This document shows, piece by piece, positions 1,215 through 25,596 of a stretch of 30,101 bases of DNA; position 1 is the stretch's first letter, and every line of letters begins with the position of its first letter. The translations under genes were made by a program, and so were the position numbers. The stretch covers positions 1-30,101 of the IMG/VR virus record IMGVR_UViG_3300006793_000162, one strand, 5' to 3'. The notes below the pieces were generated by a model. It made no database searches. It was not told where the DNA came from and saw only the letters and a program-made list of their open reading frames with translations. Source of the stretch: a virus.

Positions 1215-2282
1215 ATGAGAAATTTTATAGGTAAAAAATACGATACACTAGAGCGCGAAGCGACCAACAGAAATGGGCGCAGTGTCTCTAGAACTATCGT
1301 ACAAGGTTACCAACAATCACCGAACGCGGAAAATTACGCGTCAACACCTTTTGAAATAGATTTGAAAGGGCTTAACCGCAGACAAAGAGAGAATAATATT
1401 CGCACTACTCAAACCTCTGCTCTTCCTTATGAAGTAATTCATAAATCTATTTTTACAATAGGTATGGAAGTTGAAAAGTCAAGAATTTCAAGAGAAGTTT
1501 TGACAGGGTCATCACTAAATGAATTTTGTTATTTAATGAAAGGAATTGAACGAGATGGGTCTTGCGGACTAGAAGCAATCACAAATATTTTACCACTTGT
1601 ACCGCAGTGCAAATGGCGAAATAAAATGTTTAATCTGATGTATGAAGCAGAAAAACTAATTGAGGAGGAGTATAGCCAATCTGATGAAATGAACGGGCGC
1701 GGGTCGTATATGTGCGGGGGTCATATCACAATTAGCAGTATTAATCATACCGCTAGTGAATTAAATAAACTGATGAGACCATACACCGCAATTATTTATG
1801 CCTTAAACAGAAAGCGACTAGCTAATCAGTATTGTTGTAACAATACCAATGCTAGAACGAGGGGGGAAAGCGAACAATTTAATCCAGCGTATAATAAATA
1901 CCAACCAATATTTGAAAAAGCGGGGGGAAAGCTACTTGAGTTTAGACTATGGAGCCGATTCACTAGCGTAAAACAAATGATTAATAGGTATAAATTAATG
2001 CAAATTATTGTTGATTATGCTGTCAACGATAGAGGTACTTATGCGAAGTTAATGAAGAAACTTAAGCCGATTTTATTGTCTATGTATAATAATAATGAGC
2101 AAAAAGTTAATGAGTTAATAGTGTTGTCTAGAAGTTTTAAAAAGATGTTAGTCTCTAATAAAATAGATGAAAAAATAACAAAATTTATCTATCGTAGTGA
2201 GCGTTCTCAAGACAGCTTTTTAACACCACAAGCAAAAAGAATGTTAAGACAAAACCTCATAACTTGGGCTAGTATGCGTTGA
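1215..2282 (+). CDS. Amidoligase-like enzyme (amidoligase_2, glutamine-synthetase-like fold)
   Basis: 355 aa. The family signatures appear in the expected order: GMEVEKS near residue 83 (the GxExE strand), ERDGSCGLEAITNILPL near 112-128 (the D-GS-E-SP type strand), GGHITIS near 168-174 (the G-H-H type metal/ATP strand), and LLEFRLWSR near 240. Family knowledge: these ATP-dependent ligases join an amine to a carboxylate, and they are often encoded beside class II glutamine amidotransferases and AIG2/GGCT-type cyclotransferases. Exactly those two domains follow at 2637-3725. The substrate cannot be told from sequence; cell-wall peptide, a small gamma-glutamyl metabolite or a protein side chain are all possible. 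The gene ends in TGA and is followed at once by a palindrome and a strong terminator. Assignment rests on motifs read by eye. Confidence 0.65.
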   Translation: MRNFIGKKYDTLEREATNRNGRSVSRTIVQGYQQSPNAENYASTPFEIDLKGLNRRQRENNIRTTQTSALPYEVIHKSIFTIGMEVEKSRISREVLTGSSLNEFCYLMKGIERDGSCGLEAITNILPLVPQCKWRNKMFNLMYEAEKLIEEEYSQSDEMNGRGSYMCGGHITISSINHTASELNKLMRPYTAIIYALNRKRLANQYCCNNTNARTRGESEQFNPAYNKYQPIFEKAGGKLLEFRLWSRFTSVKQMINRYKLMQIIVDYAVNDRGTYAKLMKKLKPILLSMYNNNEQKVNELIVLSRSFKKMLVSNKIDEKITKFIYRSERSQDSFLTPQAKRMLRQNLITWASMR

Positions 2283-2289
2283 TGCAATA

Positions 2290-2301
2290 GTCGTTAACGA
2301 C
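2290..2301. repeat. Palindrome GTCGTTAACGAC (copy 1 of GTCGT-N2-ACGAC)
   Basis: Perfect 12-bp palindrome between the stop codon of the amidoligase-like gene and its terminator. The identical 12-mer recurs at 14094-14105, and related copies are at 5861, 7378 and 16406. Possibly a protein-binding site. Confidence 0.6.
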
Positions 2302-2308
2302 CAAAATT

Positions 2309-2336
2309 AAGACCGCTTTTTGCGGTCTTTTTTTTT
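2309..2336 (+). terminator. Rho-independent terminator after the amidoligase-like gene
   Basis: Perfect 8-bp stem AAGACCGC (2309-2316) with GCGGTCTT (2322-2329), loop TTTTT, followed by a run of T to 2336. It closes the transcript holding the genes at 225-2282 and insulates the downstream control region. Confidence 0.9.
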
Positions 2337-2372
2337 GCTCCACACCCAACTACCGACAAGAGCAGGAAAGAG

Positions 2373-2409
2373 CCACACACCACCACACCACCACACACCA
2401 CCACACACT
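2373..2409 (+). repeat. A/C-only low-complexity tract
   Basis: About 37 bases made only of A and C in irregular CACACCA / CCACACA units, free of G and T on this strand. Such a strand cannot fold on itself. It sits between the terminator and the iteron-like repeats. It could be an unstructured entry region for replication proteins, or simply a replication-slippage product. Confidence 0.8.
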
Positions 2410-2422
2410 ATATTATATAAAG

Positions 2423-2524
2423 TACACGAAACATAAATTCGCACAACTACACGAAACATAAATTCGCATAAAGCAGAAGACTTTTAAAAGCGGTCTTCTA
2501 AAATACACGAAATCAAATTTCGCC
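2423..2524. repeat. Iteron-like repeats (three copies of a 21-bp unit)
   Basis: TACACGAAACATAAATTCGC(A) occurs at 2423-2443 and again, identical, at 2448-2468. A diverged copy, TACACGAAATCAAATTTCGC(C), is at 2504-2524. Each unit has partial dyad symmetry (CGAA...TTCG, or CGAAA...TTTCG in the third). The first two copies are 25 bp apart. A hairpin-forming inverted repeat lies between copies two and three. The array is immediately upstream of a promoter, so it may be an operator array or a replication origin. Confidence 0.75.
2475..2499. repeat. Inverted repeat with nested palindrome
   Basis: AGAAGAC (2475-2481) pairs with GTCTTCT (2493-2499), and the palindrome CTTTTAAAAG (2481-2490) is nested inside. 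No T-tract follows on either strand, so a terminator is unlikely. It sits inside the iteron-like array. Confidence 0.6.
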
Positions 2525-2531
2525 TAAATTG

Positions 2532-2563
2532 TTTGGCTATGTCTAAATGTTTTCTTATCTTTG
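2532..2563 (+). promoter_or_regulatory. Bacteroidota-type promoter P1
   Basis: The -33 element TTTG (2532-2535) and the -7 element TATCTTTG (2556-2563, matching TAnnTTTG) are 20 nt apart. The stretch TTTGGCTATGTCTAAAT (2532-2548) is identical at promoter P2 (5893-5909). TGTCTAAAT occurs twice, at 2540-2548 and 2562-2570, 22 bp apart (about two helical turns), overlapping both core elements as an operator would. It probably drives the genes from 2637 to about 5861. Confidence 0.8.
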
Positions 2564-2636
2564 TCTAAATTAATCAGAGGTCAGAGGACAATACTAGGCA
2601 ATAGTAGGAAGTCTAAACCTCACAAACAAATAAATT

Positions 2637-2990
2637 ATGTGTATAATAATAGTGAAGTCGAAAGACAAGCAAGTCTCACAAGAGACATTAAAAAATTCTG
2701 CAAGAATTAACCCTCACGGATTAGGGGTAATTTTTCTGGATACCAACGAGGTAAAATATTTTAAATCAAAGGATTATAAAGTATTGAATACTAATAGACC
2801 ATACATTGCGCATTTTAGATACGCAACCAAAGGGAAAATCAATAGAGAAAATACGCACCCTTTTATCTGTGGGAAAAACACAGATGAACTGCTAATGCAC
2901 AATGGAACTCTAGTAGGATATGGGTCGCACGACTTATGCGATAGCAAACAACTAGCTATCGAACTAGGGGGCATACCTCGTAGCAACTGA
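2637..2990 (+). CDS. Class II glutamine amidotransferase domain (N-terminal part of an interrupted GAT-II/GGACT gene)
   Basis: 117 aa up to an in-frame TGA at 2988-2990. The protein begins MCIIIVK, so Cys2 would be the N-terminal nucleophile of an Ntn-hydrolase once Met is removed. IAHFRYATKG (HxR motif, about residues 57-66), HPF, and LMHNGTL (oxyanion-hole Asn-Gly) fit class II amidotransferases, which release ammonia from glutamine. The same frame continues past the TGA with residues typical of the rest of this domain (SRFVSYN, then NGVWFSKP), and then enters a cyclotransferase domain with no ATG of its own. So the TGA splits one longer gene: a nonsense mutation, programmed readthrough or a sequencing error. 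Expressed from P1. It is the natural partner of the amidoligase-like gene upstream. Confidence 0.75.
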   Translation: MCIIIVKSKDKQVSQETLKNSARINPHGLGVIFLDTNEVKYFKSKDYKVLNTNRPYIAHFRYATKGKINRENTHPFICGKNTDELLMHNGTLVGYGSHDLCDSKQLAIELGGIPRSN

Positions 2991-3116
2991 AGAGCAGTAC
3001 TAGGTCAGCACGATTCTAGATTTGTTTCATACAATAAGAGGAATAGACAATACGAAATCTATAACAAAGACTTATGGAGTAAGCGTAATGGGGTTTGGTT
3101 TTCTAAACCTAATGTA

Positions 3117-3725
3117 TTGCAAGACAATGTTGTAGCAGTTTATGGTACATTAAAAAAAGGTTATGGAAACCACCGATTATTAATCAATCAAAGATTTGTA
3201 GGGAAAGGAACAACAACCGATAGATACCCACTTATAATTAATGGGCTACCTTATTTAATGGAAGAGAAAGGCAAAGGACATAAAGTAGAGGTAGAAGTTT
3301 ATAAAGTAGATGATGACACCTTTAGAAGTCTTGATGCTTTAGAAGGACACCCAACTTTTTACGAAAGGGTAGAGACAAGTATAACAATGAAGAGCGGTAA
3401 GAAAATTACAGCTTGGATATATTTTAATCGTAGTCAAAAGAACTATACGAATGAAAAATACTATGTAAGGTATACGCGAGATAATACTTGGAACTATTGG
3501 AAACCTAATTATCAAAAGTACCAACCTCAACAATATACAACATATCACGACCGCAAAGACTTGTTCTCTTCATTGTCGGTAATTGCAGACAAAGAAGATG
3601 ACAACGCAAAGTATTGTCAGATATGTTTTGAAGAAGTATACTATGATGAAACTGAAATCAGTAATCAAAAATATCATTGCAGTGTGTGTAATGAAATGTA
3701 TTCAGAGCAAGAGGTTAGTAAATAA
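3117..3725 (+). CDS. Gamma-glutamylamine-cyclotransferase-like (AIG2/GGCT fold) domain with C-terminal zinc ribbon
   Basis: In the same frame as the amidotransferase upstream (2637) and separated from it only by TGA 2988-2990. The boundary used here is a TTG at 3117; no ATG exists between the TGA and the domain, so independent translation is doubtful and the full gene is probably 2637-3725 (362 codons). VAVYGTLKKGYGNHRLL, RYPLII, VEVEVYKVDD and LDALEGHPTFYERV resemble the GGACT branch of the family. The Glu in LDALEG (codon 3342-3344) aligns with its catalytic Glu. The reaction removes a gamma-glutamyl group as 5-oxoproline. The last about 40 residues hold two Cys pairs (CQIC...CSVC), a likely zinc ribbon. 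A hairpin overlaps the stop codon. Confidence 0.7.
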   Translation: MQDNVVAVYGTLKKGYGNHRLLINQRFVGKGTTTDRYPLIINGLPYLMEEKGKGHKVEVEVYKVDDDTFRSLDALEGHPTFYERVETSITMKSGKKITAWIYFNRSQKNYTNEKYYVRYTRDNTWNYWKPNYQKYQPQQYTTYHDRKDLFSSLSVIADKEDDNAKYCQICFEEVYYDETEISNQKYHCSVCNEMYSEQEVSK

Positions 3726-5892: not shown

Positions 5893-5924
5893 TTTGGCTA
5901 TGTCTAAATAATGTTGTATATTTG
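5893..5924 (+). promoter_or_regulatory. Bacteroidota-type promoter P2
   Basis: TTTG (5893-5896) lies 20 nt before TATATTTG (5917-5924, TAnnTTTG). It shares TTTGGCTATGTCTAAAT and the downstream TTTGTCTAA with P1, so both promoters are probably controlled by the same factor. It feeds the structured transcript and the tRNA. Confidence 0.8.
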
Positions 5925-5930
5925 TCTAAT

Positions 5931-6105
5931 ATTAAGGGCGAAAGTTAAGAACGCACTTCTATCGTCCTTATGAGAGATAACAAATTCCTAGAGGATAACC
6001 AAGTGCGCATTGGAATAATCCTAAAGGATGATACTCTCAACAAGTTTAAACTAGGAGCAACCAGTTTAGTAAAAGGAAGCTATATGTCGTGCTTCCTTTC
6101 TTGTT
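5931..6105 (+). ncRNA. Candidate small structured RNA between P2 and its terminator
   Basis: About 175 nt lie between the predicted P2 start and a strong terminator, with several internal pairings: CGCACTT (5952-5958) with AAGTGCG (6001-6007); ATCGTCCTT (from 5961) with AAGGATGAT (6024-6032); TGAGAG (5970-5975) with CTCTCA (6034-6039); ATCC/GGAT near 6018-6029; and TAAACT near 6046 with AGTTTA near 6063. Some cross each other, so pseudoknots or alternative folds are implied. A 49-codon frame (5970-6119) also exists, but it runs through the terminator into the tRNA and uses more CTN Leu and AAG Lys codons than neighbouring genes. I favour an RNA; a small peptide is not excluded. Confidence 0.45.
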
Positions 6106-6109: not shown

Positions 6110-6182
6110 TGCGAGGTAGAGCAGTGGTCAGCTCGTGAGTCTCATAAACTCAAGGTCAGCAGTTCGAATCTGCTCCTCGCAT
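6110..6182 (+). tRNA. tRNA with CAU anticodon (Met, or Ile2 if C34 is modified)
   Basis: A 73-nt cloverleaf. Acceptor TGCGAGG (6110-6116) pairs with CCTCGCA (6175-6181); T8 and A9 are present. D-arm GAGC/GCTC. Anticodon stem TGAGT/ACTCA with loop CTCATAA and CAT at 6143-6145. T-arm AGCAG/CTGCT with loop TTCGAAT. The discriminator base is T (6182) and CCA is not encoded. It lacks the three G-C pairs of an initiator tRNA anticodon stem, so it is an elongator Met or an Ile2 (AUA-reading) tRNA. AUA codons are common in this AT-rich phage, which would make Ile2 useful, but sequence alone does not decide. Confidence 0.93.
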
Positions 6183-6202
6183 CTAACCAAACAAATAATA
6201 AA

Positions 6203-7675: not shown

Positions 7676-7825
7676 ATGAGTGAAATAAGAAAAGAAAAAA
7701 CGATAGATGATTTAATGCATAATCTTAATTGTGCGGTCAATCAATTAAAAAAAACTCTCCGCAACCGAGACCAGTGGGAGAAAATAATGAATAAAAAAAA
7801 GATAAATGAAAGAACCAATATTTAA
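7676..7825 (+). CDS. Small charged protein (49 aa)
   Basis: The start is taken at ATG 7676 after caaacaacaaaca, the usual A-rich leader; the frame extends upstream only through the terminator, using non-ATG starts. The product begins MSEIRKEKTIDDLMHNL and is helical and basic at its end. It overlaps the next gene by 20 nt. Function not recognised. Confidence 0.55.
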   Translation: MSEIRKEKTIDDLMHNLNCAVNQLKKTLRNRDQWEKIMNKKKINERTNI

Positions 7826-8108
7826 TCAAATAGCGGAGAATGTATGTTCTCTGTATGATATTAGTAGGGAGCAACTCTTTACTAAAACTAAAGAAAGAAG
7901 AGTAGTAGATGCTAGACACCTGTTATATTATGGATGTATGGATAGACAAATTAGACTAGGATATATCCAAGAGTATTTAACCAAGAATGGATATAAAGTT
8001 AGCCATTCTTCTATCCTGCACGGGATAGGCGTGGTAAAAGAAATGATGAACAAAGATGATGATTATAAAACGATTACCGATAGAATTCAAGAATGTGTTA
8101 CTCTTTAA
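7806..8108 (+). CDS. Stand-alone DnaA domain-IV-like DNA-binding protein (100 aa)
   Basis: Residues about 8-80 follow the layout of the DnaA C-terminal domain: a first helix (IAENVCSLYDIS), the segment RRVVDARHLLYYGCMDRQIRLGYIQEYLTKNG (compare R..VDAR...YL....S...IG..FG), and SHSSILHGIGVV at the place of the D-H-T/S-T-V signature that reads the DnaA box. No AAA+ domain is present. By family knowledge this is a sequence-specific duplex-DNA binder. A role at the phage origin, as a regulator or as a decoy of host DnaA is inferred. The gene overlaps both neighbours by 16-20 nt. A second protein of this type is encoded at 14923-15315. Confidence 0.65.
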   Translation: MKEPIFNQIAENVCSLYDISREQLFTKTKERRVVDARHLLYYGCMDRQIRLGYIQEYLTKNGYKVSHSSILHGIGVVKEMMNKDDDYKTITDRIQECVTL

Positions 8109-16776: not shown

Positions 16777-19700
16777 TTAATTTATAAATAAATCATCTCG
16801 TGCATCTTTTGGAGGCAGCCATCTCCTAGGAATAGAACCATCTCCATATCCTAACATTGACCAGAAGTTGTACCAGAAATTACCTTGACCTAAGAATATT
16901 CTAGCAAGACCCCTTGGAGTCCTAAACTGTGCCCCTGCTACAAACTGTAGGATTGTTGAGGGAATTTCTAATATATCTCCCGAGCTTATATCTCTTCCTA
17001 GTTCTTCTGCTAAATCATCTAAAGGATTAGTAATAGCTCTGTTCCATTTATTTTTCCATCCTTCTGCATTAGATTCGTTAAGAAAGGTCTGAAAAGCATT
17101 TCCAAGAAATGGAACTATTTTTACTACATTCATTGGAGACGAGAGTATTCTATCAAAAGCTTTTTCTCTATCTTTTTTATCTCCCCCTAAGAGTAGTGGA
17201 AGGTTTCCAACTAGAGAGAATACCAACTGTACAAAGAAAAGATTAATAAGAAGCCCTCTAACGTCTCTTTTATCAGCCACCTTATTACCCAGTAAAGCTC
17301 GTCTTATATTAGCCTCGTGTACAAAAACTCTGTTTAAAGCTAAAAATAAAGAGCTACCAAACATAGTGAAACCACGAACTACTTTATTTTGACTGGTTTG
17401 TAAAGAGTTTTTATCTAACCCTCGTCTGGTTTGCTGCGTTAAATTGTAGTCATTAAAATAACGCAATGCTTCTTTAGGGTCTACCCCATTTTCAATCATA
17501 TTGTCATAAGCTACCATATACCCTAATACCCCCCAGATATCTCCTTGGGTTGTAAAATATCCAAAAGCTTGGTTAACTAGTTTAAAAGATTGAGCGAGCT
17601 TTTTATATTCAGGCCCTAAGTCTACACGCTCTTGCCCTGTGGTTAAAGCATACATTTTTCCCTCTAAACCTTCTTTTCTTCTGGCTCTAAATTGAGCAGA
17701 CAATTCTGTAGCTCTTCTGATGGTATCTTTTTTATTACGCATTAGCTTCATATAAGCCTGGGTAAACTTGAGAAACTCTCTGGTCTCATTTACTGTTCCT
17801 CCTAATATAGATTTTAAATTTTCAGCTATATCTTCTGCTATTATTTTTAAATCGGTTGTGCTTCTAAATATAGGGTCTCCTTTTTTCTTAGTCTCAAAAA
17901 CAGCAAACTTAGGATTATTATATAATACAAATCCATTAATATAGGAAGAAGCTTGTTTAGGCAACTGAACAGGTTTTAAAGCTAGAGCCCACGAAACCAT
18001 CCGTTCCATTAACCAGGAGTTTACATCATTAAAGTTTTTACTTTTAGTTAAATACCCTTTAGGATGGATAGCATCATTAATAGCTTTGGTAACGGCAGCT
18101 CTAATAAACATTATATCTAGGTAGGTGCGTACAGCAGGGGTGTTAACTATACCGTCCAGAATTTTAACCACTTTTGCATAAGCCTTATACCTTTCATTAT
18201 CTTCTGCGTGCTTTTCTAGTACCGAAAAGAAATCAGCAAACATTACCCTTAATGCTTTAGTGTTTTGAACTCGTTCAGATATCAAAGATGGGCTTATGTT
18301 TTGGAAGTTCTTTACAAATCCTGTGTCAGAAAAAGAACTCCTTTCCGATTCTTTAGATTTAATTCTTTTTTCAGTTTTTCTAGGGAAATAAGGAAACTCT
18401 TGTTTTAAGTTCTGTTGATTTTCTTCAACATACACTGCATTTGTTAAATCAAATTCTTGATACGTCAGCATTTCTAAAACTTCATCTACAAACCTAACAA
18501 GATTTTCTCCTAGATAATCAGTAATCATATCTATTTTTTCTTGTGTAAATCCATCTTGTATCAACATCTCTTTTGCGTCAGGGTGTTTCCATTGCGAATA
18601 GATATACATTAATTGTGGAACAGTTAAACTATTATCTGTAGCCCAGTCTTTTAAAATGGTGTTGGTTTTATCAAAAAGTTTTATTCCCGCTTTTTCTAGT
18701 GTGGAAGCAATTTGCTGAATATTAACCCCAGGAATATTTAATCTGTCTTTTAGTATGGCTTCTTGTTTTATAAATTCATAAGCTGAAATTTTCCCTAGTT
18801 GGCCCTTGAACATTTTTTTGTCTCTAAAAGGTAAAATAACTTCTGAATCAAATTCTTTAGCTCCCATTATTTCAGCTGCTATTTCCTCTATCTTATCCAT
18901 AAATCTGAAATAACCTAGGTTATAATATTCTTCTGCATCCGCTAGTCTATAATAAATATCTTTAACAAATACATCTGACTGCCCATTATCTAAGGCGTTC
19001 ATAAGGGTATAGGTAATACCTAATAAACTTCTAAAGGTAGCTGTAATCGGCTCTATTCCTTTTTGTATTAAAGGCTTTAATATTTCGTCTTTTACCTGTT
19101 GCAGAGATTTTTGAAGACCCTTTTCTTTAATTCCTTTCCATATATTTAAAAAGTCTTCTGCTATTCTGTCCTCGTTTTTTAACGTACCATTTTCATTAAA
19201 TAAGAAAGGAGCTAGCTTCTCTTTTATTTCACTAGTAAACTTCTCTGATATTTCATTAATCTCATTAAACCTTTGCATTCTGTTTTCTGCAAACACTGCT
19301 CTTCCTATTTCTCTTTCTGCTTTTACATCATCCAGAATTTCTCTTACCTCTTCTAATGATAAACTTTCTATATCACCAAACATATCATACGCAGCGGTTA
19401 ATGCTAAAAGTCTATTTTGTTCTAGGCTTAACAGCTCTCCTTTACGGTCAGCTTCTAAGGCCGCTTGAATTTCATTTTCTCTTTCCCCTAACTCCTCACG
19501 CAAAGACTTCATTCCCTCCGCGTCTTTATTAATCACCATCTTTAAAACTCTCCTGGCTTGTTGCATAAACAATCCTGTTTCAGCATCTACTCCTCTTGAC
19601 CTTACTTGGCTTGATATGGTTTTAGCAGGCCTACCCCCTATGTTTAATATTTTATATATAGAATTTATTAAAGCACGTTTCGTTTTTTCATTTTGTTTAT

Positions 19701-22700
19701 CTATAGCTTGCAATACTCTTTCTACAGCTGCCATATAATCATCTGGAGTTTCTATATCCGCTACAACTTTAGTTAAGCTTCTTAATATACTTTTAGTGGT
19801 GTCTGTTTCATCAGGAAAGTTTAATCTTATAAATCTTACTAATTCATTTTTTACTCTATTAATATCTCTAACTGCTCTCTTTCGTTCAGTAATTAATTTT
19901 TTTAATTCTTTAATCTCTGCAGTAACCTCTTTACCTGTTCTGATATTTAAGTTCTTATCTAATGCTACTACTAATTCTTGCTGGATATTTTTAGGCTGTT
20001 GCTTAAATAAAACAGAGCCTTGTAAATATTCTTTAGCAAACTTTCTAACCTCGGATTTTTTTCTTAGCACCTCCCCTTTTTTAATAGGCAATGGATACCT
20101 TCTTAATATAGTGCTGGTATTTTGAGTTTTTAAGTCAGGGTATTTTCTTCTTAATTCTGCCGCATACTCGTTTCTTACATCTTCTAATATTCCTCTTTCT
20201 CCTATAAATTCATTAACTGCTCTGTTCACATCTTGAAATAAAGACATCCCTGCAAAGAAACCACCTTCCATATTAGCAAAGGCTTCAGGTAAAGCTTTAG
20301 TTTCATCTAATGTAAATTTCATTGCAGCATCTACATCAGCAGCTGTATAATTAACATCTGTAAATTTTATCCTATCCTTTAATACTTTTTTAATGGAAGC
20401 GTCTGGTATACCACGCTCTCGTGCTCTTTGAATAATAAGGTTTACATCTGAATCAAAAGATAATGTTTCTTCTTTTTGAGAAAATAAAGATAATTGAGGA
20501 GACTCTTCAGGAACAAAATCAGGATTAACTTCTTGACCACCTAATAAATCACCCAGGGCCATATTTGCAAACCTTTCTAATGACATTTGTTCTAACGCTT
20601 CACCTTCAGGCATCGTGCTTTCTCTTTCTCCTTTTTTATTCTTTTTAAACGTACCTGATAACCAGTTTTTTATGTAAGCCCAGAATTTTTTTATCCATCT
20701 TATAAAAGGATTTTCTTTTGCTTTTTTACTTTTACTAAAGTCACTTTCTACATATCTAGCAAACCTACCCCCCTCATCAGCAATATAATCCGACAATGCT
20801 TCTATTGCTGCTAACTCATATCCTTGTTTTGTTTTTTTATCTCCGTATATACGTTTAGCTTCATCATAATAGGGTTTACCTCTAGAGTCAGTTTTTACTA
20901 CTTTTATTCCTTGACGCAGCAAAGCAGTCCCTTGGGTTCCAGCAGGAGATGCTAAGTAATCCAACCACGGGTGAGAAAACTCGTGTATAGCAATTTCAAA
21001 TGATTTGTCGTTAGGATTTATAAATATGGTATTATTATTTCTATTCATTCCATATACAGTATACCCACGAACTATTCTTCTTTGTACTTCAGGTTTTTTT
21101 ATTTCTGCATCAAACTTGGCCTGGTCAACAACTACTTTATAAGTTGGAAAGGCTAGGCTTAATAGCTTTAAAAGTTCAGCCTGGTCTTTCGCACTCATTT
21201 GTGGCCTAGTTTTTGCCCTCTTTCCAAAATCAGGGTGAGCTGTGGGATTGTAAAAAGAACCATCACGAGTAAAAATATAACCAGGGCCTCGGCTTTTTCT
21301 CACAGTAATACCGAGCTTTTCTCCTTCACTTATAAGTCTAGACGGATTATCTACATTATTCATATACCCTTCATCATTCATTCCATAATCTTCAGCTAGT
21401 TTATCAATAGCATATTGATTTCTAGCTAGTTTGAAAAAGGTTCCATCTTCTAAATCTTTCGCTAACTTTGCTTCTTCTGCGGAGTAGGTAGTAGCTTTAT
21501 CTTCTGCTTTTTTAGGTTTTGGAGTACGGGCTTTTACCGCTTTTCTAGCCTCTCTTTTTATTTCAGCTATTTCAGCTTTGTATTCACGAATAAGCTCTCT
21601 GGCTTCTTGCCTTAAGTCTGATTTTTCTTCTTTACTTAACCCAGGTTTTTTTAAATCTTTAGCTAACTCTTGTTTTACATTTGTTATTTCATTTTCTAAA
21701 TCTTCAATCTCCATACCTGCATCTTCATCGATTGCTTCCTGTTGTTTTTGTTTAGTTTGAGGCTTTACTTTTTTAGCCGCGTCTTTTATCTTTTTCTTAA
21801 TAGCAGCTTTTAAGTTTTTAATCCTTCTCTCTAGTTTTGGTTTATTATCTATAATGACTTCTAACATATCCTCAGTTCCTTCTTCAATAGCTTTATTAGT
21901 ATTCTCTAAAGCTTTTTCTGCTTCAGCTAATTCTTCTTTTAATTCTTTTAAAGATTTACCTTCCGATATCTCTTCACTAGATTTCTCAATACTTTCAATA
22001 TTTTCTGGTGTAACATCTACTATTACTTCAGATTCAATTCCTGGAACCCATACTGCTACATCCTTAGGTTTTACTTTTGTTTTAGTAATATTAGAAGACA
22101 ACCCTTGGTCTGCTCTTTCTTTAGATAGAATTTCAGCCATTTTCTTACTAGTAGTCATAGGTGTAGCACCTTCTCTAATTGAACCAACTCTATAAACCAC
22201 AATATCTCCGTTCTCATCTATTTCAGTATCGGGATTGTTTTTTAAAAATTCTTCTTTTAATTTTTCTTTTTGTTTTGCTGGTAACTTTTTAACTGTTTCG
22301 ACTAGCTTATTTTTTTCTGAACTATCACCTTCCATTCCTCCTCCTAAATCACTCTGCTTATAATCCGCTAGAGCTTTTTCATAATCTTCATCTTCCGCAA
22401 TAGTTGCGCTTACTTTAGAGGGAGGTAATTGGGCAAATGCATCAGCAGTCGTATCTAATATACGCTGCATTAATGATGGAGACACCTGAGTCATTGATGG
22501 TTCCCATTTTCCATTAAGAGCAATTTCACTTATTTCATCATTGATTTGTTTTATAACAGGTTTAAATGCTTGTTGCGTGGCATCATTTGTAGTTAATACA
22601 TTTTTCGCGGCTAACAAGTGAGTTAAACGTGCTACCGAGTCGGAGTTTTCTGGAGTCACATCATCTGCTTTAGTCATTAATATTTCTAAAGCTTCATTTT

Positions 22701-25596
22701 GTGCTCCTACTCTGCGCTGTATACGCTGTTCTGTGTCTGCATCAATATAATTTAACTCCCTCATATTATTAGCCCAGTTAGTTGTGCCTGGTGGTAGCAA
22801 TGGAGTATCATCAAATATTACATTCCATTTGTAATCAGCGAAATCTGAAGCCACTTTTTTACTTCTATTAATCAATCCTTGTGCTAATAAATTTGCTACC
22901 ATATTAGAAGTGTTAGCTCCAAATCCTCCGATGGCTTCCAAAGCTACTTCACCTCCATTTAATTCTGTTCCATTTAATATATGGTTATTTATTTGAGCTA
23001 ACGCTTCTCCCAATCCTTCGGCAGCAGGGTCAATCAATGCTCTTTCTGTTAATATAGCTCCTGTTCTTAACAAAGGATTCATTCCTCTTGTGCTGTAAAA
23101 TATTTTCCCAGCTAATCTAGCCGACAAGAAATCTATTATAGCAATAGGGATACCTCGTGCTAATCCCTTACTTTGCCCGTCATCCCAAACATTTTTATCA
23201 CTTAATGCCGCTTCAACAGATTTAGGATTAAATATATCATAACCCTTTTCTTCCATTGATTCAAATATGGCGTTAGTATATTCCATTCCTAAAATACTTC
23301 CTGCCATTCCTAGTTGAGCTCCTGTTACCGCCCCTGTAAACATTGACGCAGGTACTGTCAATAATTCTTCAGGCGTAGCAGCTTGGGGGCCCGCTTGGCC
23401 CGCTGCGAGTGCGTATGCCCCATAAGCTAGAGAGGTAGTGAGAGCTGTTGCAGGAACCATCTTAGCTCCATAAGGAAGCATCTCACTAAGGGAGCCAGAA
23501 GCCACACTTAAAGCCATTTCCATCGGGTTATCGGTAAACACCTCCAGTGATTCTCGCCATCCTTTTGCGCGTCTAAAATCTAAAGCAGTCGCGCTTGTTC
23601 CTTCTGAAGCTAGTACGGATGCTTTCATATATTTAGAAATTAATTCTGAAGCAACTCTTCTGTCTTCTGCATTTGTAGCATCTCTGTCGTCCCACCCTAT
23701 AGCCGAAAAACTAGTCGTGTCTGCTAATTCCAGTATAACCTCTGCTGCTTGACCTCTAGGATATCTCGTGTTGTATTCATTTACTACATTATTCCAAACC
23801 TTATTTACTACTTCCCCGTATAGTTCTTTGTTTATTTTAGAATCTAGATAGGATTTTCCTACGATAAAATTTAATGCAGCAGTTTCTCTTAAGTCATAGG
23901 CGCGTCTTTGCAGCTCTGTAAGTGCACTTATAGCTAGAGCTTCATTTTCATTTTTAGGAGTGTAAGAACTTATCTCCGAAAAAGGAGTTTCAAAATTTGT
24001 TAATGAAAATTTATCTATTTCATCTAATGCAAAATCTACTTGCGCATTTGCTTGAGTAGAGTTATTAATAAATTTCTCTCTGTTTTTGTCTGCGATAACA
24101 TCCCATTGCTGTTGAATATCTCTATATACTTCATCTCCAAAAGCTTTCTCAAATAACACATCTATTTGTGGCTTTAAGCTTTGTGCGTATTCTTTAGCAT
24201 CACTTCTTAAATATCCTTCTTCATTAAATAAGTTAGGGTATTTAGCTATTTCTTCTGGAGTGGCTTTTCTATCTTTATCCCAGGCTTTTTGCTTTGCCCA
24301 AAAACCTCCATCTGCTGTTCCTCCTAATATTAATTGGTATTCATCTCTTAAAGTGTGATAGTTTTCTACTATTTCTTTTCGACTATCATAATCTACAACC
24401 CCTTCATTTATAAAAAAGTTTCTTCTTTCTACATCCGCAGTGTCCATTGTTTTCCAACTTCCTTTAGCAAATGAATCCGCTTCTTCTTTTGTATTAAAAG
24501 GTATCAGTTCTCCATATCTAGTAGCTAGTTCTATAATTAATTTTTGGTCTCGTTTAGGGTCTAACTCTAGCCAAGCATCTGGACGCGTAGAGTGCGTCCC
24601 TTCTCTAGGAAATAAAGTAGGAGCGACATAATGTTTGCCATCCATTTCAAAAGTAGCTAATTTAACTGTTGACGCTGTAACATTTCCACTTCTATCCTTT
24701 TCTAAACGAGGTACTTGACGCATATTTTTAACCTGAATAGCTTTTTCTAAAAGAGGAACATTAGGGTCTACAAGTTTAGGTGCACGAGCATTTTCAGTAA
24801 AGAGTTTTTGTAATTGTACTAACTGGTCAATATTATCAGCATCATCTCCTGTATTTAAAAAAACCTCTCCTTTTCCGTTCACCGCTGTTACAACTATTGG
24901 GCTACTACTCACCCAGTTAGTAGAGTCGCGGGCATCGAAACTTACATTAAACCCATACTCTCCAATTAGACTTCTTAATATTTCAACAGATTCACGGGGG
25001 TTATTATCAGAAAAAATATTAGTGTTTAAAGATTTTAAGGTTTCAATATACTCAGGAGTTTGAGCTAGTTTTTCTAAGTTAGCTTGGTTTAGAGCAGCAT
25101 TATTATCAATACGCTCTTGAAGTTTTTGGTCGGCCGTTACATTAGCCTCTACTTGTTCAGGGGATATATCGGGAAAGTTTGGGTCATCACCTGCTTGTAA
25201 TTTTTGCTCTTCTTTTAATAAATCTACAGCTGCTGTAAACACGCCTCCCTTTTCTTTTATAGTTTCCCACCATCCACGGAAAGTTTCTCCTAATGGGGTA
25301 ACAGGGTCGTCTTGTATATTAGGTTTATAGGTTAAATCATCTTCAGGAAAAAGGCCACCATCTAGAGAAGTGCGATATTGATTTTTTTTTTGAGGCAACC
25401 CCTCTAATCCCATTAAAGCACCAAATTGATTTAAGTCTCCATTGTAGCCATTATTAGTAGCTAAACCGTATACATCATTTAGTGCGTCTGGATTTTGAGA
25501 AATCAGGTCTTTAAAATCTTCTTTACCGTGTCTATAGCCGTCTTTAACAGCTAATTGAAACATATCATTTAAAGCTTCGTTGTTAGTTATTTCCAT
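16777..25596 (-). CDS. Giant polyvalent virion protein with HExxH metallopeptidase motif (2939 aa)
   Basis: Residues 7-62 hold two related units (EALNDMFQLAVKDGY... and DALNDVYGLATNNGY...). Residues about 690-910 are Gly/Ala-rich and hydrophobic, with candidate membrane segments. Near 1130-1190, DIVVYRVGSIREGATPMTTS resembles ADP-ribosyltransferase-type modules. About 1195-1390 is a Lys/Glu coiled coil. HEFSHPWLDYL (near 1538) with EALSDYIAD about 60 residues later looks like a zinc-peptidase site. Long helical stretches follow, and a hydrophobic LLINLFFVQLVFSLVGNLPL (near 2780) comes before the end. Such packed-domain giants (polyvalent proteins) are known to ride in virions and enter hosts with DNA. 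Position after two smaller virion-like genes fits a gp16-like ejection protein. The individual domains are eye-matched. Confidence 0.7.
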   Translation of the reverse strand: MEITNNEALNDMFQLAVKDGYRHGKEDFKDLISQNPDALNDVYGLATNNGYNGDLNQFGALMGLEGLPQKKNQYRTSLDGGLFPEDDLTYKPNIQDDPVTPLGETFRGWWETIKEKGGVFTAAVDLLKEEQKLQAGDDPNFPDISPEQVEANVTADQKLQERIDNNAALNQANLEKLAQTPEYIETLKSLNTNIFSDNNPRESVEILRSLIGEYGFNVSFDARDSTNWVSSSPIVVTAVNGKGEVFLNTGDDADNIDQLVQLQKLFTENARAPKLVDPNVPLLEKAIQVKNMRQVPRLEKDRSGNVTASTVKLATFEMDGKHYVAPTLFPREGTHSTRPDAWLELDPKRDQKLIIELATRYGELIPFNTKEEADSFAKGSWKTMDTADVERRNFFINEGVVDYDSRKEIVENYHTLRDEYQLILGGTADGGFWAKQKAWDKDRKATPEEIAKYPNLFNEEGYLRSDAKEYAQSLKPQIDVLFEKAFGDEVYRDIQQQWDVIADKNREKFINNSTQANAQVDFALDEIDKFSLTNFETPFSEISSYTPKNENEALAISALTELQRRAYDLRETAALNFIVGKSYLDSKINKELYGEVVNKVWNNVVNEYNTRYPRGQAAEVILELADTTSFSAIGWDDRDATNAEDRRVASELISKYMKASVLASEGTSATALDFRRAKGWRESLEVFTDNPMEMALSVASGSLSEMLPYGAKMVPATALTTSLAYGAYALAAGQAGPQAATPEELLTVPASMFTGAVTGAQLGMAGSILGMEYTNAIFESMEEKGYDIFNPKSVEAALSDKNVWDDGQSKGLARGIPIAIIDFLSARLAGKIFYSTRGMNPLLRTGAILTERALIDPAAEGLGEALAQINNHILNGTELNGGEVALEAIGGFGANTSNMVANLLAQGLINRSKKVASDFADYKWNVIFDDTPLLPPGTTNWANNMRELNYIDADTEQRIQRRVGAQNEALEILMTKADDVTPENSDSVARLTHLLAAKNVLTTNDATQQAFKPVIKQINDEISEIALNGKWEPSMTQVSPSLMQRILDTTADAFAQLPPSKVSATIAEDEDYEKALADYKQSDLGGGMEGDSSEKNKLVETVKKLPAKQKEKLKEEFLKNNPDTEIDENGDIVVYRVGSIREGATPMTTSKKMAEILSKERADQGLSSNITKTKVKPKDVAVWVPGIESEVIVDVTPENIESIEKSSEEISEGKSLKELKEELAEAEKALENTNKAIEEGTEDMLEVIIDNKPKLERRIKNLKAAIKKKIKDAAKKVKPQTKQKQQEAIDEDAGMEIEDLENEITNVKQELAKDLKKPGLSKEEKSDLRQEARELIREYKAEIAEIKREARKAVKARTPKPKKAEDKATTYSAEEAKLAKDLEDGTFFKLARNQYAIDKLAEDYGMNDEGYMNNVDNPSRLISEGEKLGITVRKSRGPGYIFTRDGSFYNPTAHPDFGKRAKTRPQMSAKDQAELLKLLSLAFPTYKVVVDQAKFDAEIKKPEVQRRIVRGYTVYGMNRNNNTIFINPNDKSFEIAIHEFSHPWLDYLASPAGTQGTALLRQGIKVVKTDSRGKPYYDEAKRIYGDKKTKQGYELAAIEALSDYIADEGGRFARYVESDFSKSKKAKENPFIRWIKKFWAYIKNWLSGTFKKNKKGERESTMPEGEALEQMSLERFANMALGDLLGGQEVNPDFVPEESPQLSLFSQKEETLSFDSDVNLIIQRARERGIPDASIKKVLKDRIKFTDVNYTAADVDAAMKFTLDETKALPEAFANMEGGFFAGMSLFQDVNRAVNEFIGERGILEDVRNEYAAELRRKYPDLKTQNTSTILRRYPLPIKKGEVLRKKSEVRKFAKEYLQGSVLFKQQPKNIQQELVVALDKNLNIRTGKEVTAEIKELKKLITERKRAVRDINRVKNELVRFIRLNFPDETDTTKSILRSLTKVVADIETPDDYMAAVERVLQAIDKQNEKTKRALINSIYKILNIGGRPAKTISSQVRSRGVDAETGLFMQQARRVLKMVINKDAEGMKSLREELGERENEIQAALEADRKGELLSLEQNRLLALTAAYDMFGDIESLSLEEVREILDDVKAEREIGRAVFAENRMQRFNEINEISEKFTSEIKEKLAPFLFNENGTLKNEDRIAEDFLNIWKGIKEKGLQKSLQQVKDEILKPLIQKGIEPITATFRSLLGITYTLMNALDNGQSDVFVKDIYYRLADAEEYYNLGYFRFMDKIEEIAAEIMGAKEFDSEVILPFRDKKMFKGQLGKISAYEFIKQEAILKDRLNIPGVNIQQIASTLEKAGIKLFDKTNTILKDWATDNSLTVPQLMYIYSQWKHPDAKEMLIQDGFTQEKIDMITDYLGENLVRFVDEVLEMLTYQEFDLTNAVYVEENQQNLKQEFPYFPRKTEKRIKSKESERSSFSDTGFVKNFQNISPSLISERVQNTKALRVMFADFFSVLEKHAEDNERYKAYAKVVKILDGIVNTPAVRTYLDIMFIRAAVTKAINDAIHPKGYLTKSKNFNDVNSWLMERMVSWALALKPVQLPKQASSYINGFVLYNNPKFAVFETKKKGDPIFRSTTDLKIIAEDIAENLKSILGGTVNETREFLKFTQAYMKLMRNKKDTIRRATELSAQFRARRKEGLEGKMYALTTGQERVDLGPEYKKLAQSFKLVNQAFGYFTTQGDIWGVLGYMVAYDNMIENGVDPKEALRYFNDYNLTQQTRRGLDKNSLQTSQNKVVRGFTMFGSSLFLALNRVFVHEANIRRALLGNKVADKRDVRGLLINLFFVQLVFSLVGNLPLLLGGDKKDREKAFDRILSSPMNVVKIVPFLGNAFQTFLNESNAEGWKNKWNRAITNPLDDLAEELGRDISSGDILEIPSTILQFVAGAQFRTPRGLARIFLGQGNFWYNFWSMLGYGDGSIPRRWLPPKDARDDLFIN

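Follow-up and report, generated by a model that had tools for sequence, protein, structure and literature searches.

The phage fragment analysed here (30,101 nt, hereafter the window) is IMG/VR virus record IMGVR_UViG_3300006793_000162. It carries at 2637-3725 (+) a gene that encodes a class II glutamine amidotransferase (GATase) and a gamma-glutamylamine cyclotransferase (GGACT) domain, and codon 118 of this gene is an in-frame TGA. Sequence comparison suggests, with a probability of about 70%, that the locus specifies one protein made by reading through this UGA. The conserved UGA together with a short element directly 3' of it is probably a case of programmed stop-codon readthrough in double-stranded DNA (dsDNA) phages, and this is the novel part of the finding. 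The main argument for this reading is a combination of features, namely the TGA, coding selection beyond it, a frozen stretch exactly 3' of it, and the absence of that stretch in relatives with TGG. The features of the gene are as follows, with synonymous variation denoted as pS and the ratio of nonsynonymous to synonymous substitution as dN/dS.

2637-2987 (+): first part of the class II GATase, 117 amino acids (aa), with Cys2, HFR, HNGT and Asp102
2988-2990 (+): in-frame TGA, codon 118; TGG (Trp) in the 62 distinct outgroup genes aligning there
2991-3725 (+): putative readthrough part, with the remaining N-terminal nucleophile (Ntn) fold of the GATase, the GGACT domain and the zinc-ribbon tail (from dN/dS and the structural model)
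2991-3026 (+): conserved element, codons 119-130, with suppressed synonymous variation (pS)
3000-3022 (+): core of the element, CTAGGTCANCACGATTCTAGATT
3000-3019 (+): possible weak hairpin, CUAGGUC-A[GA]CAC-GA(U)UCUAG
3132-3440 (+): GGACT (gamma-glutamylamine cyclotransferase/AIG2) domain, residues 166-268
3615-3689 (+): four-Cys zinc-ribbon-like C-terminal tail; Cys327, 330, 348 and 351 invariant in 25 relatives

The conserved TGA and the sequence around it

Every distinct gene of the clade to which the window belongs, 13 in all, had TGA at codon 118; these genes came from many separate IMG/VR contigs. All 62 other related GATase-GGACT genes aligned at this position had TGG, that is, an invariant Trp, and one further row (UFV-P2, L019) aligned over GGACT only and lies outside this count. 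The two relatives from GTDB genomes, which are Bacteroidota metagenome-assembled genomes (MAGs) binned as Cytophagales and Flavobacteriales, both carried TGG; no 16S gene was found in either MAG. In a tree built without codon 118 and the element, a single change sufficed to explain the distribution, and the TGA clade received a Shimodaira-Hasegawa-like approximate likelihood ratio test (SH-aLRT) value of 88. Since the TGA genes form a single clade, the element and the TGA share one origin. All 98 Trp codons counted in the window were TGG and no other TGA occurred within the counted genes, which ruled out a whole-phage TGA=Trp code. Sequencing error or a pseudogene was likewise ruled out by the 13 distinct genes, their separate metagenomes and a dN/dS of 0.11. 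In seven contigs we recognised no second conserved stop within a domain, and the other conserved same-frame pairs looked like adjacent genes or non-coding frames.

The original prediction had described the locus as joining a class II GATase to a GGACT-like domain with a zinc-ribbon tail. Its motifs (Cys2, HFR, HNGTL, YGTLKKG..NH, LDALEGHP and the C-x2-C..C-x2-C tail) were all located in 2637-3725 as placed, and both family assignments were borne out by profiles above their cut-offs (hmmscan: GGACT PF06094, 89.5 bits against 22.8; GATase_4 PF13230, 30.2 bits against 23). However, the locus is not a single open reading frame (ORF) in the standard code; because codon 118 is an in-frame TGA, the fusion holds only with stop readthrough. 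The class II GATase residues C2, H59-F60-R61, N89-G90-T91 and D102 were invariant, as were Y169-G-T-L and E236 of GGACT, the latter of which we take to be the catalytic Glu of that domain. The structural model of the fusion matched human GGACT (3juc among others; target template modelling (TM) score 0.73-0.76) and GFAT-1 in Foldseek.

The dN/dS ratio was 0.107 over codons 119-160, against 0.114 ahead of the TGA and 0.170 within GGACT, and the sequence after the conserved stop behaved as in-frame coding sequence. The model placed the stop within a helix (residues 115-122), with four strands of the Ntn domain still to come. Because these last four strands would be missing, the 117-aa termination product is predicted to be unable to fold as a GATase and is presumably inactive.

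The pS of codons 119-130 in the TGA clade was 0.245, among the lowest of all 12-codon windows of the gene, and the five lowest such windows started at codons 116-120. None of 20,000 random 12-codon sets had a pS as low as this. The same codons had a pS of 0.884 in ten TGG relatives, from which the frozen stretch was absent, and gene-wide pairwise pS among the main TGA-clade lineages reached 0.85. Conserved residues were encoded by identical codons at 6 of 8 positions in the element versus 21 of 129 elsewhere (p = 7.5e-4). Among 2.9 million viral contigs, the core CTAGGTCANCACGATTCTAGATT turned up in 20, each time at the TGA site; a looser TGA-anchored pattern recovered the same 20 contigs, and the core was single-copy per genome in the 15 genomes checked. 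A search of Rfam gave nothing relevant for the element. Elsewhere in the gene, a stretch of low pS in the TGA clade covered codons 344-355 at the 3' end (about 3666-3701, in the zinc-ribbon tail).

Proposed decoding and rival explanations

Under the readthrough proposal, ribosomes would pass the UGA at codon 118 to give a single protein consisting of GATase, GGACT and the zinc-ribbon tail. An RNA element of ~24-36 nt directly 3' of the UGA, acting as part of the mRNA, would most likely raise readthrough or disfavour release factor 2 (RF2). The residue put in would most likely be Trp, through near-cognate decoding by the host tRNA-Trp; Trp is the parsimonious choice because every TGG relative has it there. 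As termination would leave a presumably inactive fragment, the UGA may gate or throttle, at the level of translation, the amidotransferase/cyclotransferase enzyme that partners an amidoligase encoded upstream. We lean slightly towards the further proposal that a UGA within a catalytic domain and a nearly invariant 3' RNA element of ~24 nt make up a dedicated dsDNA-phage recoding signal through which all active GATase-GGACT enzyme would be made, possibly sensing RF2 or the state of translation during infection.

Several observations weigh against readthrough guided by such an element. All TGA genes belong to one clade (the SH-aLRT 88 group). The hairpin is weak (core -2.8 kcal/mol), 67-nt folds reached at best a z of -1.9 and were mostly no better than shuffles, and covariation is lacking because the hairpin sequence never varies. 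The signal is therefore as likely to be linear as structured. Furthermore, the A kept at one degenerate site is not rare by itself, as an invariant A occurred in 4 of 20 comparable columns, and pS was lowered at both gene ends as well.

Five other explanations were considered. A split gene would stop at the UGA and start a second protein separately, either the rest of the GATase or GGACT alone, with the element as its ribosome-binding region. This is unlikely: a TTG-started ORF is listed at 3117, and 12 of the 13 genes have either a GTG as codon 160 or a TTG as codon 161, but relative L008 has neither, and no start codon position 3' of the UGA is common to all clade genes. The outgroups, moreover, all have a single continuous gene, and codons 119-160 are strongly constrained and complete the Ntn fold. 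The chance is smaller that a dedicated suppressor or altered tRNA-Trp, supplied by the host or in late infection, decodes the UGA as sense without need of the element. UGA-reading forms of tRNA-Trp exist in bacteria (PMC13092985) and Trp insertion would agree with all relatives. Nevertheless, neither a Trp/UCA nor a suppressor tRNA was found in the window or the longest TGA-clade contigs, a single TGA would be so used beside 98 TGG codons, and the frozen 3' element would be left unexplained. A tRNA-model search of 12 contigs gave none in three TGA-clade contigs and tRNAs in four TGG relatives (anticodons not read). A phage-encoded suppressor tRNA was likewise rejected: apart from one tRNA-Met, in the window and its near-identical record, no tRNA was found in the TGA-clade contigs searched.

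Selenocysteine (Sec) at the UGA, with the 3' element as a bacterial Sec insertion sequence (SECIS), is improbable. Bacterial SECIS elements sit immediately 3' of the UGA inside the coding region (PMC1088965), and the position of the constrained stretch fits; however, the homologues have Trp (TGG, 62 of 62) rather than Cys, the apical-loop G is lost in L006, L009 and L015 (AACAC loop), and the stem is as weak as stated above. Sec decoding was also not found in Bacteroidetes in a 2006 survey (PMC1794560); among cellular genome bins the closest relatives belong to Bacteroidota, and this argument holds if the host does too. We give slightly less credence to a reading in which the gene is decaying, its TGA is a nonsense change that is tolerated, and the element works as a promoter or operator inside the gene. 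In its favour, the element is partly dyad-symmetric and the window contains TAGATTTG, which is similar to the Bacteroidota -7 box. Yet the TTTG of this box is missing in L004, L006, L028 and L033, the element is single-copy and intragenic, and selection acts no less strongly after the stop than ahead of it. Least probable of all is removal of the stop in RNA, by A-to-I editing of UGA to UGG or by processing, or its skipping by an in-frame stop hop. Editing would give back Trp and in-frame hops are mechanistically possible (PMC5009743), but the site was not recognised as carrying any known editing motif, though no systematic search for one was made, and a hop would lose an invariant residue.

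The upstream ligase, the cassette and other window features

Programmed readthrough would act on the partner of a ligase gene that lies upstream on the same strand. This gene and other features outside the fusion are listed below.

1215-2282 (+): amidoligase_2-like ligase of the glutamine synthetase/carboxylate-amine ligase fold, 355 aa (from a profile-profile match, AlphaFold/Foldseek and invariant residues)
2309-2329 (+): hairpin followed by a T run, intrinsic-terminator-like, between the ligase and GATase-GGACT genes
2533-2563 (+): match to a Bacteroidota-type promoter, TTG-N20-TATCTTTG, ahead of the GATase-GGACT gene
6110-6183 (+): tRNA-Met (CAT) gene

The amidoligase assignment had been proposed from the motifs GMEVE, DGSCGLE, GGHITIS and LLEFRLW, all of which are present in 1215-2282 as placed. 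A direct match to PF12224 did not follow, since its gathering score was reached neither by the window ligase nor by any of 38 relatives; hmmscan returned no Pfam or NCBIfam match for the protein, and there was no meaningful PHROG match. Because direct profile matches were absent, profile-profile and structure comparisons were used, and these upheld the kinship. The ligase family profile aligned with seven annotated phage amidoligases including C75C1 (hhalign, probability 95.8, E 7e-9), pairing the GxExE, DxS..E, GxH, R..YC and EFR motifs in the same order. PF12224 itself was matched at 3.5e-30 in L018, in the ligase slot of that locus; the A1 member responsible for this match is C75C1. GxExEK, D114, E120, GGH, R201 and EFR were invariant in the family. 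The AlphaFold model (predicted local distance difference test score 92) had its best Foldseek matches in the PDB to glutamine synthetase, gamma-glutamylmethylamide synthetase, YbdK, PafA and Dop, with E-values of ~1e-4 to 1e-3 (7.7e-5 to glutamine synthetase). The TM-scores were ~0.3, and the kinship is therefore at the level of fold only; searching PDB sequences with the profile of the ligase gave no match. Judged by profile alignment and model, the product is a very divergent amidoligase_2-like protein with predicted ATP-dependent amide ligation activity. The ligase homologue of L017 (MW202828, 6218-7942) has a ~200-aa N-terminal extension that is not in the window protein.

The expected linkage of the ligase and the fusion was recovered: 87 of 97 fusion-bearing loci have a ligase gene upstream in the same orientation, and the ligase is present in 55 of 60 de-replicated loci. 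Most of the ten fusion loci without it start too near the fusion or are truncated or partial records. C75C1 and MW202828 retain the pair. Comparable but unfused gene sets occur in LUZ24-like Pseudomonas, Arthrobacter and Vibrio phages, and the ligase with GGACT also in Bacillus and Geobacillus phages. Such gene sets were predicted to be a modification system by Iyer et al. 2009, as cited in a passage of PMC10580990 that credits them with the suggestion that the wall is modified as a guard against superinfection. Given the same kind of gene set in other phages and this earlier prediction, the cassette is not new, and by sequence it is a divergent member of an already known kind. The pathway in which the ligase, an ammonia source and gamma-glutamyl removal would work together is a proposal carried over from the original prediction.

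The ligase gene and the GATase-GGACT gene are probably not one transcription unit, because the terminator-like hairpin and the promoter match lie between them. The promoter match is one of two near-identical Bacteroidota-type matches, at 2533-2563 and 5894-5924 (+), that read TTGGCTATGTCTAAAT..TANNTTTG; the pair suggests phage operons starting from the GATase-GGACT gene and near 6000. The same intergenic region contains a low-complexity tandem repeat, CCACACACCA, at 2373-2408 (+). Early genes of the window are arranged on the + strand and late or virion genes on the - strand. Among the latter strand's features, 16777-25596 (-) is one 2,939-aa ORF with a zincin-like HEFSHPWLDYL motif, probably encoding an ejection protein or internal virion protein of giant size. 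A 100-aa protein encoded at 7806-8108 (+) resembles the C-terminal, DNA-binding domain of DnaA (PF08299, E 3.6e-7, slightly below cut-off), and in 53 of 60 relatives a gene of a conserved family, equal in length, lies ~3.3 kb 3' of the fusion. The tRNA-Met gene is shared with the near-identical record L003 and was not present in the other TGA-clade contigs searched.

Implications and comparison with known systems

If the readthrough proposal is true, bacterial stop-codon readthrough would here be driven by a natural signal that has a short sequence element and has stayed stable in evolution, in phages whose nearest cellular-bin relatives are Bacteroidota, where recoding is little studied. The phage would gate an enzyme pair through termination efficiency rather than transcription. 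The claim is directly testable because the element is short enough for reporter transfer. Annotation pipelines would split or discard such a TGA-containing gene. Through the enzyme set, a known phage modification system that is functionally unexplored in the literature found gains a divergent branch of amidoligases.

The closest enzymatic counterparts are the systems of Iyer et al. 2009 and the amidoligase/GATase/AIG2 (GGACT)/ATP-grasp cluster of LUZ24-like phages (UFV-P2), with which the window shares three enzyme classes, encoded adjacently in an early region. In contrast to that cluster, the GATase and GGACT are fused here and the fusion carries the conserved UGA, no ATP-grasp or COOH-NH2 ligase was noticed near the window genes, and the window amidoligase is too divergent for PF12224. 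As for recoding, programmed UGA readthrough of the coat gene in the RNA phage Q-beta yields the A1 protein, likewise a C-terminally extended product of a UGA in phage mRNA. The present case differs in that it concerns a dsDNA phage, the stop lies inside a catalytic domain so that readthrough would be required for any activity, and the 3' element is conserved at the nucleotide level. Bacterial SECIS elements share the in-frame UGA and constrained sequence immediately 3' of it, whereas here the homologues have Trp and not Cys, the apical-loop G is not conserved and the stem is weak. Belinky et al. 2021 (PMC7918605) described bacterial genes with in-frame stops and low dN/dS, suggesting readthrough and lowered expression. 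The window gene shares both properties with them; however, its stop is kept over lineages with pS up to 0.85 and is accompanied by a dedicated 3' element, whereas the text of Belinky et al. makes no mention of a stem, hairpin or secondary structure.

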